Shown here: piece after piece, positions 5,995-12,269 of the stretch
Numbering within the stretch: the stretch's first letter is position 1
How the letters are laid out: each line of letters opens with the position of its first letter
Origin: Lachnospiraceae bacterium
GTDB taxonomy: Bacteria; Bacillota; Clostridia; Lachnospirales; Lachnospiraceae
Reading direction: 5' to 3'
DNA length: 64,000 bases
Assembly: GCA_028689655.1 (NCBI GenBank)
Contig: JAQVCT010000002.1
Span: 1 to 64,000 of the forward strand
The notes under the pieces: model-generated
What the model saw: only the letters and a program-made list of their open reading frames with translations
Told to the model about the DNA's origin: nothing
The model's database searches: none
Translations under genes and position numbers: made by a program

Positions 5995-7032
5995 CTATCT
6001 CGTACTATTTATCGAATCAAAGGCACTGATTGACCTAATTCGACCAACCCTTAATTTCAAACGCAACATAAATTTTCCATTATTCATTGCCCTTAAACCA
6101 TTTCTGACAAATTCCATAATATACTCTATATTCTTCTCTATTCCATCAACTGCATAATCATGATTTAGTATGAATTTTTCATTCACATCTTCTGAAAAAG
6201 GTACAAATTCTTTATAAGTAATACAATATTTCTTAGAAGTTAAGCAACTCTCTGCATTAGTTGGATGTTTTCGCATAAAATGAATATAAGATACTTCTTG
6301 TCTCTCAACCATGCCATTTAATTCACTGATATAATATCTATATGCTTGTCCATTTTCTATTCCAAATATCTGATGTTTATTATTACTAACCACCACTTCA
6401 CCATCAACTGTATCTTCATCCATGCATACGAACATTCGATAATGAGGATCTATATCAGCACAAATCACCTTATTGTATACTGGTATTCCTTTCGTACGAT
6501 AAATTCTGGTTATTCCAGTATGTTCATCAAATCCCATACAATCTCTATTTAAAAAAACTGTATGATAACCATACATACCAAATGGTTCTTTATATAAATT
6601 GTTATTTACATCATTATTCCTGTACAATGACAAATGACCTACTTCAAATATTCTGTCGAAGTTATCTAAAATATTATCATCAATGAAATGTGCTAAATGA
6701 CCAAAAATCAAATCCACATCACAATGTCCCCAAAAATCATAATTGCTCACTACATCTTGAAACGCTAACCCGTATAATACCTTATAATCACATAATTTAT
6801 ATGCATTATCTAATTTACATTCGAACCCCAGTACTTTTGAAAATTTATTTTTCAAATCTGCTAATGTTGTACTAATTATTTTTAAATTATTTGGAAGATC
6901 ACAATTCACTGATTGATCCGTATACATCACAAAATCAAAATCACCGTTATATCCACAAGATTGTATCCATAATGTAATCCATTCAGGAAAACTTCCAATA
7001 TAACATGTGATAATAACCACTCTATTCTTCAT
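5995..7032 (-). CDS. DUF6625-like putative glycosyltransferase
   Basis: Predicted GT-A-fold glycosyltransferase of the DUF6625 type. Visible features are an N-terminal Rossmann-like strand (VVIITCYIGSFPEW), an aromatic-rich donor region, and a DxD-like motif in GHCDVDLIFG near residue 107, expected to bind metal and the nucleotide sugar. The start is the ATG at 7032, which shares a base with the upstream stop (TGATG); the in-frame GTG just before it is less likely. This tight overlap implies co-translation with the DUF4422 gene. The specific linkage formed is unknown. Confidence 0.8.
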   Translation of the reverse strand: MKNRVVIITCYIGSFPEWITLWIQSCGYNGDFDFVMYTDQSVNCDLPNNLKIISTTLADLKNKFSKVLGFECKLDNAYKLCDYKVLYGLAFQDVVSNYDFWGHCDVDLIFGHLAHFIDDNILDNFDRIFEVGHLSLYRNNDVNNNLYKEPFGMYGYHTVFLNRDCMGFDEHTGITRIYRTKGIPVYNKVICADIDPHYRMFVCMDEDTVDGEVVVSNNKHQIFGIENGQAYRYYISELNGMVERQEVSYIHFMRKHPTNAESCLTSKKYCITYKEFVPFSEDVNEKFILNHDYAVDGIEKNIEYIMEFVRNGLRAMNNGKFMLRLKLRVGRIRSISAFDSINSTR

Positions 7033-7805
7033 CACTTTTTAACCTTCCTCATAAGAAAACTTCCTCCCTTTATGAACCAGTTTTGCTTCTCCATAAACAT
7101 AACATCAACTTCTTTATAGTTAATTCCATTCTTTTTCATCCAAACATCAAGCATAAATTCTCCGTAATATGCCACTGCTCTAGTTTGCATTCGATCATAA
7201 TCCGTAACATCAATTTTCTTGTCTGCTTCTAATATAATTGTAAACAACCATTCGCAATATTTATCAAATAGTTCTTTTTTCATGATAAACATATTAAACA
7301 TATGTGCTGAAGTACCATTCATTACATTTTTAAAGGAATCATAATAGTCAGGTGTTTTTTTCTTAATTACTTCTTCTAATACTCTATAATCCTTTTCAAA
7401 TGTATACGGTAAATGAAGAAAATGTGATTCCATTGTCTCAATGTAATATTTTCTTTTATTAGGTACTATCACATCTACTTTTTTAAGAATTGACTCTATT
7501 TCTTTCTCTGTAGCCACAAGGCTAAATTTGTCTTTCGTGAACAATCTTTTTAAGGCACTGGAACATGTGAAATGTCTCCTGTAATGCACTAATCCAATAT
7601 AGTCCGCTTCTATATTTTTCCATGCCCAATAGATACCAGTCAGTTCGCACAATCGTGAGTTCTGATTTGATATATTGTCCCCAGTATCATCTCCTGTAAA
7701 TCCAATATCAGGCTTGCCTACTTTTCCAACATGAATTGGAATATAAATTTTGTCTTCCGGCATTCTATACTTCTTATGTGTAGCCACGATTACTTTAATA
7801 TTCAT
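7032..7805 (-). CDS. DUF4422 family glycosyltransferase
   Basis: Matches DUF4422 proteins, a family common in capsule loci and treated as glycosyltransferases. The N-terminus IKVIVATHKKYRMP and the NSRLCELTGIYWAWKN segment (about residues 49-64), followed by the GLVHYRRHF motif, are the family hallmarks. At 257 residues it is of normal length. It is the first gene of the AT-rich serotype block, 38 bases after galE. UDP-galactofuranose or UDP-galactose could be the donor given galE upstream, but that is inference. Confidence 0.87.
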   Translation of the reverse strand: MNIKVIVATHKKYRMPEDKIYIPIHVGKVGKPDIGFTGDDTGDNISNQNSRLCELTGIYWAWKNIEADYIGLVHYRRHFTCSSALKRLFTKDKFSLVATEKEIESILKKVDVIVPNKRKYYIETMESHFLHLPYTFEKDYRVLEEVIKKKTPDYYDSFKNVMNGTSAHMFNMFIMKKELFDKYCEWLFTIILEADKKIDVTDYDRMQTRAVAYYGEFMLDVWMKKNGINYKEVDVMFMEKQNWFIKGGSFLMRKVKK

Positions 7806-7843
7806 TTTACAATTTTATCCTCTATTCCATTAATTCAAATGTA

Positions 7844-8818
7844 TCAGTATTCTGTATTCTCATGCCACTTCCATGCATGCGCCACGATTGAATCTATATC
7901 CGCATATATCGGTTTCCACCCAAGTACTTTTTGTGCTTTTGCACTGCTTCCCACTAATTTTGCCGGATCTCCATCGCGTCTATCAGTGACTACAACCTTA
8001 AACTCTTTACCCGTTATTTTTTTCACAGACTCAATAACTTCTAACACTGAACTTCCATTTTCGTTTCCCAGGTTAAAGAAATCACTTTCTCCACCATTTT
8101 GCAGATATTTGAGAGCCAGCAGATGAGCGGTTGCCAGGTCATATACATGTACATAATCCCGTACACAGCTTCCATCCGGCGTATTATAATTATTTCCAAA
8201 TACTTTGATATCTGCTCTTTTTCCACTTGCGGCATCCAGTACCAGCGGTATAATATGTGTTTCTGGATTATGACTCTCCCCTATCTCACCTTCCGGATCA
8301 GCACCTGCTGCATTGAAGTAACGAAGTACTACGAATTGCAGTCCATAGGCATTGTGATAGTCTTTAAATATTCTTTCCATCATCAGCTTTGTTGCGCCGT
8401 ATGGATTGATTGGGTTCTGTGGCATATCTTCTGTGATTGGGACTTTCTCAGGTTCTCCATAAGTTGCACAGGTAGAGGAAAATATAATCTTATTGCAATT
8501 ATATTTTTTCATCACATGAAGCAGATTCAGAGTGTTTGCCACATTGTTATAATAGTATTTTTCCGGTTCCTGGACACTCTCTCCCACATAGGCAAAGGCT
8601 GCAAAATGGAAAACCGCCTCTATTTCATACTTTTTAAAAACGTTTTCTATATCCTCAATATTCTTCAAGTCTCCCGGTATGAAATTTCCCCATTTAACTG
8701 CTTCACGATGACCATACACCAGATTGTCAAATACGATTGTTTCATAGCCTTCCTTATGTAATTGCTTATTGATATGAGAACCTATGTATCCTGCCCCACC
8801 ACATACTAATATTGCCAT
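7844..8818 (-). CDS. galE: UDP-glucose 4-epimerase
   Basis: Interconverts UDP-glucose and UDP-galactose, supplying UDP-galactose (or the GalNAc equivalent) to the capsule pathway. The extended SDR architecture is clear: NAD-binding GGAGYIGSH at residues 6-14, the FAAFAYVGESV segment, the catalytic SSTCATYGEPE stretch, and YxxxK as YGATK near residue 144. Length of 324 residues is typical. A good ribosome site (AGAGGAAAA) precedes the ATG. It sits between the priming transferase and the first glycosyltransferase. Together with the kinase-nucleotidyltransferase fusion two genes upstream, it could form a short route from a free sugar to UDP-galactose. Confidence 0.95.
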   Translation of the reverse strand: MAILVCGGAGYIGSHINKQLHKEGYETIVFDNLVYGHREAVKWGNFIPGDLKNIEDIENVFKKYEIEAVFHFAAFAYVGESVQEPEKYYYNNVANTLNLLHVMKKYNCNKIIFSSTCATYGEPEKVPITEDMPQNPINPYGATKLMMERIFKDYHNAYGLQFVVLRYFNAAGADPEGEIGESHNPETHIIPLVLDAASGKRADIKVFGNNYNTPDGSCVRDYVHVYDLATAHLLALKYLQNGGESDFFNLGNENGSSVLEVIESVKKITGKEFKVVVTDRRDGDPAKLVGSSAKAQKVLGWKPIYADIDSIVAHAWKWHENTEY

Positions 8819-8883
8819 TTTTATTTTCCTCTTTGCTTAGTGAATTGAAATAAACGTATCCTCTCAGTGCTTGGGAATACTTC

Positions 8884-9531
8884 TTAATAAGCTCCATCTC
8901 CCACTATTACACTGATTATTGTTTTAATGATTATCTTTATATCCGTCCATAGGCTTGCTTCTCTTATATACTTCAGATCAAGTTCTACCCATCTGTCAAA
9001 AGGAATCGTATCCCTTCCCATACACTGCCAATAGCAGGTAAGTCCCGGCTTTACCAGATATCGCTGCATCTGATACGCATTACATTTCTCTGTTTCATAG
9101 GTAGGCAGTGGTCTGGGACCAACGATACTCATGTCACCTTTTATGATGTTTATTAGCTGTGGCAGTTCATCTATGCTGGTACGTCTTAGGAATTTTCCTA
9201 CCCGGGTAATTCTGGGATCATCATGCATCTTGAATGCCGGTCCATCCAGTTCGTTTTTATCCAGCATATCAAAGTGCATCTGCTGCGCATTCTGACACAT
9301 GGTTCTGAGCTTATACATGCGAAAGACCTTACCATTCAGACCATTCCTATCCTGATAGAAGAACACTGGTCCTCCGTCCTCCAGCTTAATGGCAATAGAA
9401 ACCGGAATCATGATGATCATTGCAGCCACCAGTGCCATTGACGATAGCACAATATCAAAAAAACGTTTCCAGAATCTGTACGCCATACGCTTATCTGTAG
9501 TTTCCTGGATATAATTAACTTCTGTATCCAT
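8884..9531 (-). CDS. undecaprenyl-phosphate sugar phosphotransferase (priming transferase)
   Basis: Starts the capsule repeat by moving a sugar-1-phosphate from a UDP-sugar to undecaprenyl phosphate. The minimal bacterial sugar transferase core is present: a membrane helix at about residues 20-42, then FRMYKLRTM, FLRRTSIDELPQL and SIVGPRP motifs, all typical of the WbaP/CpsE/PglC superfamily. It lacks the long N-terminal multi-helix domain of large WbaP proteins. The open frame extends upstream into the previous gene, but AAGGAG lies nine bases before the ATG at 9531, which I take as the start. It is encoded right after the kinase-nucleotidyltransferase fusion. Confidence 0.9.
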   Translation of the reverse strand: MDTEVNYIQETTDKRMAYRFWKRFFDIVLSSMALVAAMIIMIPVSIAIKLEDGGPVFFYQDRNGLNGKVFRMYKLRTMCQNAQQMHFDMLDKNELDGPAFKMHDDPRITRVGKFLRRTSIDELPQLINIIKGDMSIVGPRPLPTYETEKCNAYQMQRYLVKPGLTCYWQCMGRDTIPFDRWVELDLKYIREASLWTDIKIIIKTIISVIVGDGAY

Positions 9532-9568
9532 CAGCATATTCTCCTTCGCATTATCCATTAAACCCGGT

Positions 9569-11509
9569 CTATTTACACTTGCCATATTCCAGAAATGTTT
9601 TTTCATACATTTCCGGCAATCCCACATCAAAGCTTTCTCCATCAACATCGACTGCTATCAGATCCCCATTTTGTGCCTCATGCAGAAGAGCCGAAGTAAT
9701 ATCTATTTCATTTACCTGTTGGTTACTATTTATCATTTTATCCTGTTCTTCTATTTGGTTCTCCAGATATTGAAAGATTTCATCTGTCAGCACATATTGT
9801 CCAAAGGTAGCGAAGCATTCTCCATCTACTGACAGTTTTTCTCTTGCATATGGCTCATCCGGTTTCTCCACCATATTGTCCACTACCATCAGATAAGGAC
9901 GCTCTGTTGTAAACCGTCCGTGAATGATTCCATAATTTTTACTATCTTGAAATGGCACCTTTTTAATGGAAACTACTGATTTTCCACCAGACTTGTTATA
10001 TGCATTGATGGTCTGCTGTGTACAGCTGATACTGAGATTACTCCTGTAGATGAAGTCACCCAGCATAAGTATGGCAGGCTCTTTTTTTAGATATTTTCTT
10101 GCCTGATATACCGCATGTCCAAAGCCACGTTTCTCGTGCTGTACCACATAACGGACTCTCTGTCCAGTCTCATACAGTGTCTGATAATAGCTTCTGAGAT
10201 GTTCTGGAAGTTTACTCTGAAATTCCTTGTCAAATTCAAAATCAAATATCTTACGATATGCTTCCTCTTCTCCTTCTCCAACGATCAGATAGATATCTTC
10301 CACTTCTGCTGCTATCAATTCCTCCAGCATATACATCAGTACAGGCTTGGTAATTCCACTTTCATCTATCACCGGCAGAAATGCTTTTTTGATAAAGAAT
10401 GTTTCCGGGAACATTCTGGTACCAATTCCTGCAATGGGTATGATTGCCTTTTTAATCTTCCCACCTGCATTTAATTTAAAAGGAAAAGCATCCATGTGTC
10501 TTTCCTGATTCAGATAATCCACAATCATCTGCTGTGTTTCTTTATTCTTTGCAAGCAGTTGGACTGTTCCATCTCCCTGAGAACCTACTCCTTTTGCTCC
10601 GTAGATCCAGGGCTGAAGTTTGGGATCATTTAATACAGAATGAAGTACCGGAGATGCCAGTTCATCCGGGCAGGCAGGTGCTACCTTTTCATCAAACAGA
10701 TTTTGTGCCTCTACCATAATTTTCCCCAGTTCTTCTGGATTTCCCTCTTCAATGGCATGTCTTGCTCTGTCTATGATTACATGATTCTCTTTTCCCAGTG
10801 CTTCCTGTTCCTGCATTCCTGTCTTATCTGTTGCAAAGGGATACGCTTTATTCAAGTAGGCAAGTATCTTCTTCGTATCTTTGCTGGCACACAGATCTGC
10901 AATGACCCAGTAAAAGTTCTTGCCAACACGAAGCTTCTCCACGTCAATTTCATTTTCATTAAAATGCATCAGAACTGGTGTCTCTCCATAGGCACAAGCC
11001 TGATCCAGCCGTCCACAGCGTGAACCCGTAAGCAGTTCTCCACGATAGGCAATCTGCATGATGCCTCTTGTGCTGATATTCAGTCCATACAGTTCATTGA
11101 AAGCTTTTGCCACCAGACAGCATACAGCTGCCGAGGAGGACAATCCTTTTTTCATGGGAAGTGTTACTTTATTTATTCTAATAGAAACGCCGGCCACATG
11201 ATAATTTTCGCACATATATGCAGCGACCCCGCAGCAATAGGAAAATAAGCCCGATTCAGCCGCCAATTTTTTCAGCATTTTAGACTTCATTTCGCAAGTA
11301 ATGGATTCTTTTTTTCCACTTGCGTTAAAGGATGAAATCTCAAAATTCTCTGACTTTGAAGCCGTGGCATAGATACCAAGATTAATCCCGGTAACGATGG
11401 CTCTTCCTTCTACCAGATCTGCATTTCTGGCTGTGTAGGTACCTGCCCAGTCGCTGTGCTCCCCAAAAAGACATAATCTTCCAGGAACAAATAATGATAC
11501 TTTTTTCAT
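9569..11509 (-). CDS. fused GHMP sugar kinase and sugar-1-phosphate nucleotidyltransferase
   Basis: A two-domain enzyme of about 646 residues. The N-terminal half (about 1-345) is a GHMP kinase: it has PGRLCLFGEHSDW, which closely resembles the galactokinase signature, then KKGLSSSAAV (ATP loop) and a C-terminal GAKGVGSQGDG motif. The C-terminal half (about 353-646) is a nucleotidyltransferase with AGIGTRMFP, KKAFLPV and EKRGFGHAV, close to GalU-type UTP-glucose-1-phosphate uridylyltransferase. The inferred role is to phosphorylate a free sugar and then charge it to a UDP (or other nucleotide) sugar in one protein. In the well-known fucose salvage enzyme FKP the order is the reverse, pyrophosphorylase first. 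The start is uncertain; 11509 fits the kinase fold best, 11542 is the alternative. Confidence 0.85.
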   Translation of the reverse strand: MKKVSLFVPGRLCLFGEHSDWAGTYTARNADLVEGRAIVTGINLGIYATASKSENFEISSFNASGKKESITCEMKSKMLKKLAAESGLFSYCCGVAAYMCENYHVAGVSIRINKVTLPMKKGLSSSAAVCCLVAKAFNELYGLNISTRGIMQIAYRGELLTGSRCGRLDQACAYGETPVLMHFNENEIDVEKLRVGKNFYWVIADLCASKDTKKILAYLNKAYPFATDKTGMQEQEALGKENHVIIDRARHAIEEGNPEELGKIMVEAQNLFDEKVAPACPDELASPVLHSVLNDPKLQPWIYGAKGVGSQGDGTVQLLAKNKETQQMIVDYLNQERHMDAFPFKLNAGGKIKKAIIPIAGIGTRMFPETFFIKKAFLPVIDESGITKPVLMYMLEELIAAEVEDIYLIVGEGEEEAYRKIFDFEFDKEFQSKLPEHLRSYYQTLYETGQRVRYVVQHEKRGFGHAVYQARKYLKKEPAILMLGDFIYRSNLSISCTQQTINAYNKSGGKSVVSIKKVPFQDSKNYGIIHGRFTTERPYLMVVDNMVEKPDEPYAREKLSVDGECFATFGQYVLTDEIFQYLENQIEEQDKMINSNQQVNEIDITSALLHEAQNGDLIAVDVDGESFDVGLPEMYEKTFLEYGKCK

Positions 11510-11557
11510 GTTAAACCAACTTTCTCTTCTATTCATTGTCATCTTTTTCTACTAAAT

Positions 11558-11636: not shown

Positions 11637-12269
11637 CTATGCGTTTATTACTGATAATACACAGTTCGTAGGTACTGTAACGATGATGGTACCGTTAGCT
11701 GCGATCACTGGTGCGATGACTGTGAACTGTCCTGTAGTAGCATCGAATGCTACGAGACGGATGTTGGCAACGTCCACTCCTGCCAATGCAGGTACGCTGA
11801 TTGCTGTTGTTACTGTTGTAACAGAAGCATCTACGCTGGATACGTTGAAAGCAAATGTCTGGGCAAGGTTCCAGCCTGGAGCGATTGCTCCAAGTACAGC
11901 ATTTACGTATGCTGTAGCGCTCTCATTGACTGCTGCTACATTTACTTTTGCTGCTACTTCCTGGCCGTTCACTACGACTTTCTGTACAGGCTGTACTGCT
12001 GCTACCACAGCGGCCTGAGCTGCTGTTGATGTGGAAGCCACTGACTGTACTGCTGCGGCTGCAGGTGTGGAAGCTACGATAGCTGCTGTGCCTGTTGCTG
12101 CTGTTTTAGCCGTTGTGGATGTGCTTGTGGAAGCTGATGATGAAGATGATGATGATGAATGTTTGCTTCCTGAGCTGCTTGATGATGTTGGGCTTTCTGC
12201 TGCGCATACGGACATTGTCATGGACAATGCTGTTACCACAGCAAGACCTAATGCAAGATATTTTTTCAT
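11637..12269 (-). CDS. secreted Ser/Thr/Ala/Val-rich low-complexity protein
   Basis: No family recognised. A clear signal peptide (lysines, then a hydrophobic stretch ending CAAES near residue 25) is followed by a serine/threonine run (about residues 27-55), an Ala/Val-rich region (about 56-110), and a more structured C-terminal half that may be a small beta domain. There is no LPXTG motif or membrane anchor. AAAGGAGGAA gives a strong ribosome site. The gene sits inside the capsule operon between the LCP protein and the kinase fusion and is much more GC-rich than genes further downstream. It could be a surface or matrix protein released with the polysaccharide; this is speculation. Confidence 0.75.
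   Translation of the reverse strand: MKKYLALGLAVVTALSMTMSVCAAESPTSSSSSGSKHSSSSSSSSASTSTSTTAKTAATGTAAIVASTPAAAAVQSVASTSTAAQAAVVAAVQPVQKVVVNGQEVAAKVNVAAVNESATAYVNAVLGAIAPGWNLAQTFAFNVSSVDASVTTVTTAISVPALAGVDVANIRLVAFDATTGQFTVIAPVIAANGTIIVTVPTNCVLSVINA

Follow-up and report, generated by a model that had tools for sequence, protein, structure and literature searches.

The 64,000-nucleotide stretch of a Lachnospiraceae bacterium analysed here (the window; contig JAQVCT010000002.1, positions 1 to 64,000) carries on its minus strand a gene, likely extending over 9569-11509, that joins a GHMP sugar kinase and a GalU-type nucleotidyltransferase in one chain, with the kinase first. This architecture is real, conserved and apparently without a published description: a literature search for galactokinase/uridylyltransferase fusions returned, apart from unrelated papers, only FKP and zebrafish GKUP, although subscription papers were largely outside its reach and the absence is thus unproven. 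With somewhat better than even confidence, we read the protein as a bifunctional enzyme that salvages a sugar for polysaccharide precursors, most likely galactose or a close galacto-configured sugar. The class of mechanism, a kinase combined with a UDP-sugar pyrophosphorylase, is well supported by extension from two known enzyme families; we infer both activities, the use of UTP as the nucleotide, the identity of the sugar and the flow between the two sites.

The minus-strand frame at 9569-11542 is uninterrupted for 657 codons from ATG 11542 and holds both domains. Because many homologues begin near M12 (MEKIELFVPGR..., MSDKISIFVPGR...), the internal ATG at 11509, also chosen by the initial annotation, is probably the native start; residues are numbered here from ATG 11542. 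The kinase domain (residues 13-358; 10469-11506, minus strand) contains a match to GHMP_kinases_N (PF00288) at residues 102-186 (E = 2.4e-15, 57 bits against a Pfam cut-off of 22.3). Only a few residues separate it from the transferase domain, which spans residues 361-657 and, with the stop codon, 9569-10462 of the same strand, and which matches NTP_transferase (PF00483) above the Pfam cut-off at residues 365-611 (E = 1.8e-19). The description of a galactokinase-like GHMP domain ahead of a GalU-like transferase, first given by the initial annotation, is therefore borne out by the Pfam domains in a single open frame. Models of narrower scope score below their NCBIfam cut-offs: 159.1 bits against 326.8 for the GalU equivalog TIGR01099, 46.8 against 226.65 and 67.3 against 443 for the galactokinase models TIGR00131 and PRK03817, and 70.6 bits for a mevalonate kinase model that is among the best NCBIfam matches. 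The galactose-binding signature PF10509 reaches 19.2 bits on the protein against a cut-off of 23.1, and 25.4 in a genome search that included in-frame neighbours, while a Pfam search of the window protein found nothing of the fucose pyrophosphorylase domain PF07959 at E values up to 0.01. Among the families listed for 61 members there is no model of the whole fusion, each model covering one half.

The fusion is neither a chance occurrence nor a sequencing artefact, since it recurs at full length elsewhere. The window's genome has a single copy; of the 396 other genomes of the family that were searched, 9 hold full-length relatives (47-70% identity), and further families of the same order have them as well. 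Identity to the fusions of other genomes is 45-70% overall. A profile scan of named genomes, from which 80 of 571 relatives were kept, extended the carriers to three phyla, with Lachnospiraceae, Oscillospiraceae, other Clostridia, Prevotella, other Bacteroidales and Treponema, many of them gut or rumen bacteria. In total, 94 intact fusions were recovered, mostly of 640-665 residues, and these represent 73 loci distinct at 90% identity; full-length alignment to the window protein shows the kinase first in all 94. Mean identity is higher in the kinase half (61%) than in the transferase half (50%). A nearly whole fusion (48% identity) also lies at 7471-9378 of MT836394.1 (L186), an unverified and unannotated "bacteriophage" record from human faeces that is probably a bacterial contig rather than a phage.

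Motif conservation was counted over 72 aligned distinct fusions. In the kinase half, the galactokinase-type sugar-binding motif G27-E28-H29-S30-D31 (11450-11464; all motifs are on the minus strand) aligns with galactokinases, and R22, just before it, G27, E28, H29 and D31 are identical in all 72. The ATP/phosphate-binding motif GLSSSA (residues 133-138; 11129-11146) is likewise identical throughout. The catalytic-aspartate motif C176-G-R-L-D180-Q181 (11000-11017), which aligns with CG-x-LDQ or CG-x-MDQ of galactokinases, varies only at L179 (70/72), and most of the third GHMP motif, G318-V-G-S-Q-G-D-G325 (10568-10591), is nearly invariant (GVGSxGDG). Together with the domain score, GLSSSA places the N-terminal half, by sequence, in the GHMP kinase superfamily. 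In the transferase half, conservation is at least 98% for A371, G372, G374, T375 and R376 of the nucleotide-binding loop A371-G-I-G-T-R376 (10415-10432) and the following K386, for L494-G-D496 (10055-10063), for E559-K-P561 (9860-9868) and for D639-x-G641 (9620-9628), a probable metal ligand. Where GalU has the motif LTD, its aspartate is not kept: the window protein reads T-S.

An AlphaFold2 model built on 61 sequences has a mean predicted local distance difference test score (pLDDT) of 90.6 and a predicted TM score (pTM) of 0.75. For the kinase part (residues 9-358), the 17 best VIA-align matches are all galactokinases, led by that of Pyrococcus furiosus (1s4e; aligned on residues 13-358, Z 34.4, root-mean-square deviation 2.3 Å over 315 residues), with weaker matches to the heptokinase WcbL (Z 30.2), mevalonate kinase (30.0), the kinase part of FKP (29.6) and N-acetylgalactosamine (GalNAc) kinase (29.2). 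The transferase part (361-657) matches UDP-glucose pyrophosphorylases, with 3juk at Z 30.6 (2.5 Å, 258 residues), and the best solved relatives found with its profile are UTP-glucose-1-phosphate uridylyltransferases. Foldseek agreed with VIA-align. Predicted fold and retained catalytic motifs clearly mark the transferase half as homologous to GalU (YngB, 3juk), although the fused transferases form a separate clade and the one of the window protein scores 159 of the 326.8 bits required, has extra inserts and lies behind a kinase.

In the scheme that we favour, the N-terminal kinase would phosphorylate a free sugar at its anomeric position at the expense of ATP, and the C-terminal domain would convert the resulting sugar-1-phosphate and UTP to UDP-sugar and pyrophosphate. 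With D-galactose or a close galacto-configured sugar as substrate, neither GalT nor a free-standing GalU would be needed to form UDP-galactose. In the window, UDP-glucose could then be made from it by GalE, and the UDP-sugars would feed the glycosyltransferases of the locus, the priming enzyme included. Galactose is supported by the best fold match and by the GEH-x-D and CG-x-x-DQ motifs shared with galactokinases (P. furiosus 1s4e, Lactococcus lactis 1pie), and by the adjacent galE. GEH-x-D is not known from other sugar-1-kinases such as plant galacturonokinase, arabinokinase, glucuronokinase and FKP.

Several observations weigh against galactose. The kinase is only about 20-24% identical to galactokinases and far below the cut-offs of their models, and its profile aligns with them mainly to about residue 205, as compared with about residue 338 for mevalonate and heptose kinases. 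The galactokinase YNxRR loop, which carries the galactose-binding tyrosine, is absent, and K221-D/N-T223 stands in its place, with K221 and T223 invariant. The genome also encodes an ordinary Leloir-type galactokinase of 417 residues, so galactose entry needs no fusion. The enrichment of galE near the fusion is weak and depends on few loci, with ugd equally frequent (7/73). For every member of the family, moreover, the enzyme activities are predicted ones. The initial annotation had suggested a possible one-protein route from free galactose, or another sugar, to a UDP-sugar for capsule: intact motifs and a polysaccharide locus agree with such a route, and galactose is made a less certain choice by the second half of the kinase, the tyrosine loop and the weak galE context.

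The same two steps could instead act on another sugar, such as glucuronate, galacturonate, L-arabinose, GalNAc or a deoxy sugar, to give the matching UDP-sugar, a reading to which we give a distinctly smaller share of confidence. The distance of the second half of the kinase and its K-x-T loop from galactokinases would fit this, as would the galK already present in the genome and the better conservation of the kinase half, which is what a specific substrate would lead one to expect; zebrafish GKUP, also a GHMP kinase with a bacterial-type nucleotidyltransferase, can serve glucuronate (PMC3938481). However, E28, H29 and D31 suit a galactokinase pocket, and the ugd found near 7 of the 73 loci would have no purpose with UDP-glucuronate as the product. 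More broadly, and just as tentatively, the proteins could form a widespread, undescribed family of kinase-first salvage enzymes whose substrate, obtained from the diet or the host, is some sugar besides galactose; its direct conversion to a UDP-sugar for surface glycans would be a step undescribed in these bacteria.

We think it improbable that one half is catalytic and the other regulatory, in a manner reminiscent of GalF and GalU, so that the protein would in effect be a UDP-glucose pyrophosphorylase, or a kinase, under the control of its other half. The pyrophosphorylase activity of zebrafish GKUP is extremely low (PMC3938481), the GalU and galactokinase scores are far below their cut-offs and the LTD aspartate is replaced; but in three phyla the key motif residues of the two halves vary hardly or not at all, which would be unexpected for a dead domain. 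The loss of catalytic residues from one domain, which the initial annotation had named as an objection, is thus not seen, and its second concern, a missed stop, does not hold either: a stop or frameshift wrongly read through would agree with the separate halves of a few relatives, but 94 intact fusions from many assemblies rule it out.

The fusion sits in a polysaccharide locus, next to galE and a priming transferase as the initial annotation had stated. Downstream on the same strand are a short priming sugar-phosphate transferase (8884-9648; PF02397, E = 4e-68), galE for UDP-glucose 4-epimerase (7844-8818; TIGR01179, 464.6 bits against a cut-off of 262.3), a DUF4422 (GT111-type) glycosyltransferase predicted to transfer galactofuranose (7032-7805, minus strand; PF14393, E = 1e-83), a DUF6625 protein, a GT4 glycosyltransferase, a Wzy_C protein of the O-antigen ligase/polymerase type, a pyruvyltransferase and a flippase-type protein. 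The frame of the priming transferase runs into the 3' end of the fusion, and its true start is therefore probably an internal ATG near 9537. DUF4422 is the GT111 UDP-galactofuranose transferase domain of Klebsiella pneumoniae WbbM (PMC12269835); the glf gene of this genome is outside the window. Upstream lie an LCP protein and, directly before the fusion (11637-12269, minus strand), a low-complexity, apparently secreted Ser/Ala/Thr-rich protein; a similar one precedes the fusion in L034 (5506-6075).

Neighbours in operon-like, same-strand arrangement were found at 49 of the 73 loci. The commonest neighbour of any kind is a GT2 glycosyltransferase (17/73); in 13 loci a GT2 gene is directly adjacent. 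As a control we took 40 fusion-less loci, each centred on a priming transferase of the same type, from genomes within the same family. A galE gene lies within five genes of the fusion in 7/73 loci as compared with 0/40 (p = 0.042, one-sided and uncorrected for several comparisons), and enrichment was not significant for glf (5 vs 2), ugd (7 vs 2) or DUF4422 (3 vs 1). The word "capsule" is fair for the window, but other members adjoin varied glycosyltransferases or, in Prevotella, sit in a housekeeping-like setting.

A stand-alone GalU was not found in the window's genome (an assembly 94% complete) or in most of its relatives, and a UDPGP-type enzyme, which the same search matched in 14 of 79 genomes, was not found there either; an RmlA-type enzyme is present. 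This absence speaks for our preferred reading, but we rejected it as proof that the fusion is needed, which counts against that reading. Of 59 relatives that lack the fusion, 11 have a GalU above the cut-off; of 16 that carry it, one does (p = 0.44). Because the assembly is incomplete and fusion-less relatives often lack GalU, the need cannot be deduced.

Relatives in which the halves are separated or recombined bear on whether they work together. In L051 (G715:C3, 6519-9604), the kinase half is joined to a DUF4422 domain (719 residues) and the transferase half is a separate gene of 301 residues; galE and glf lie close by in the same orientation. Such a set points to a galactose/galactofuranose path in the L051 species, perhaps shared by the window, which has a DUF4422 gene too. 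In quick trees with SH-aLRT support only, the L051 kinase half groups with L041, L045 and L127 and its transferase half with the window and L034; because the two halves fall in different fusion lineages, L051 looks like a reassembly from two lineages rather than a simple fission. Fused transferases group with a solo transferase of Sphaerospermopsis, apart from eight clostridial GalU proteins. On the Sphaerospermopsis plasmid AP018315.1 (L183, 11968-13725) kinase and transferase are separate, neighbouring genes, and this, together with the side-by-side halves with different evolutionary partners in G715, suggests that the two functions are kept together for a joint task.

Among the cyanobacterial plasmids L183, L184 and L185, the kinase stands alone or, at times truncated, beside a solo transferase of the same clade, the genes bearing no annotation beyond GHMP kinase and UTP-glucose-1-phosphate uridylyltransferase. 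L043 (G279:C9, 6576-8099) has the kinase half behind a PF07456 membrane domain (heptaprenyl diphosphate synthase component I family), with housekeeping surroundings and no transferase partner. In L049 (G601:C109, 6783-8523) the kinase is followed by a GalU-like frame broken by stop codons, so that the fusion is here decayed or split. The stand-alone kinases of Nostoc plasmids and G279 and the G601 kinase have GEH-x-DWA in common, and their long branches make their placement uncertain.

Two-step sugar-nucleotide enzymes with the kinase first are known in HldE (heptose-7-phosphate kinase/heptose-1-phosphate adenylyltransferase), whose folds (PfkB-type kinase, cytidylyltransferase-type transferase) are unrelated and whose chemistry is different. 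One of the closest known systems is FKP, the L-fucokinase/GDP-fucose pyrophosphorylase of Bacteroides fragilis, which also unites a GHMP sugar-1-kinase and a sugar-1-phosphate nucleotidyltransferase for surface-glycan salvage (PMC11982464). In FKP, however, the pyrophosphorylase is N-terminal and the fucokinase C-terminal (PMC11982464), the opposite order, as the initial annotation had noted, whereas the window protein has a GalU-type transferase in second place and a chain of about 645 residues. Zebrafish glucuronokinase/putative UDP-glucuronate pyrophosphorylase (DrGKUP) shares the pairing of GHMP kinase and bacterial-type UTP nucleotidyltransferase, but it is eukaryotic and begins with the pyrophosphorylase; bacterial and archaeal relatives of its transferase have been reported only as single-domain proteins (PMC3938481).

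The fusion is conserved among common bacteria of gut and rumen, we found no description of its order of domains, and it bears on how UDP-hexoses are supplied in bacteria without a recognisable GalU. If our reading is correct, it would provide a one-protein route from free sugar to UDP-sugar, comparable to that of FKP for GDP-fucose, and it could be put to use in the enzymatic synthesis of UDP-sugars and in the labelling of bacterial surface glycans.
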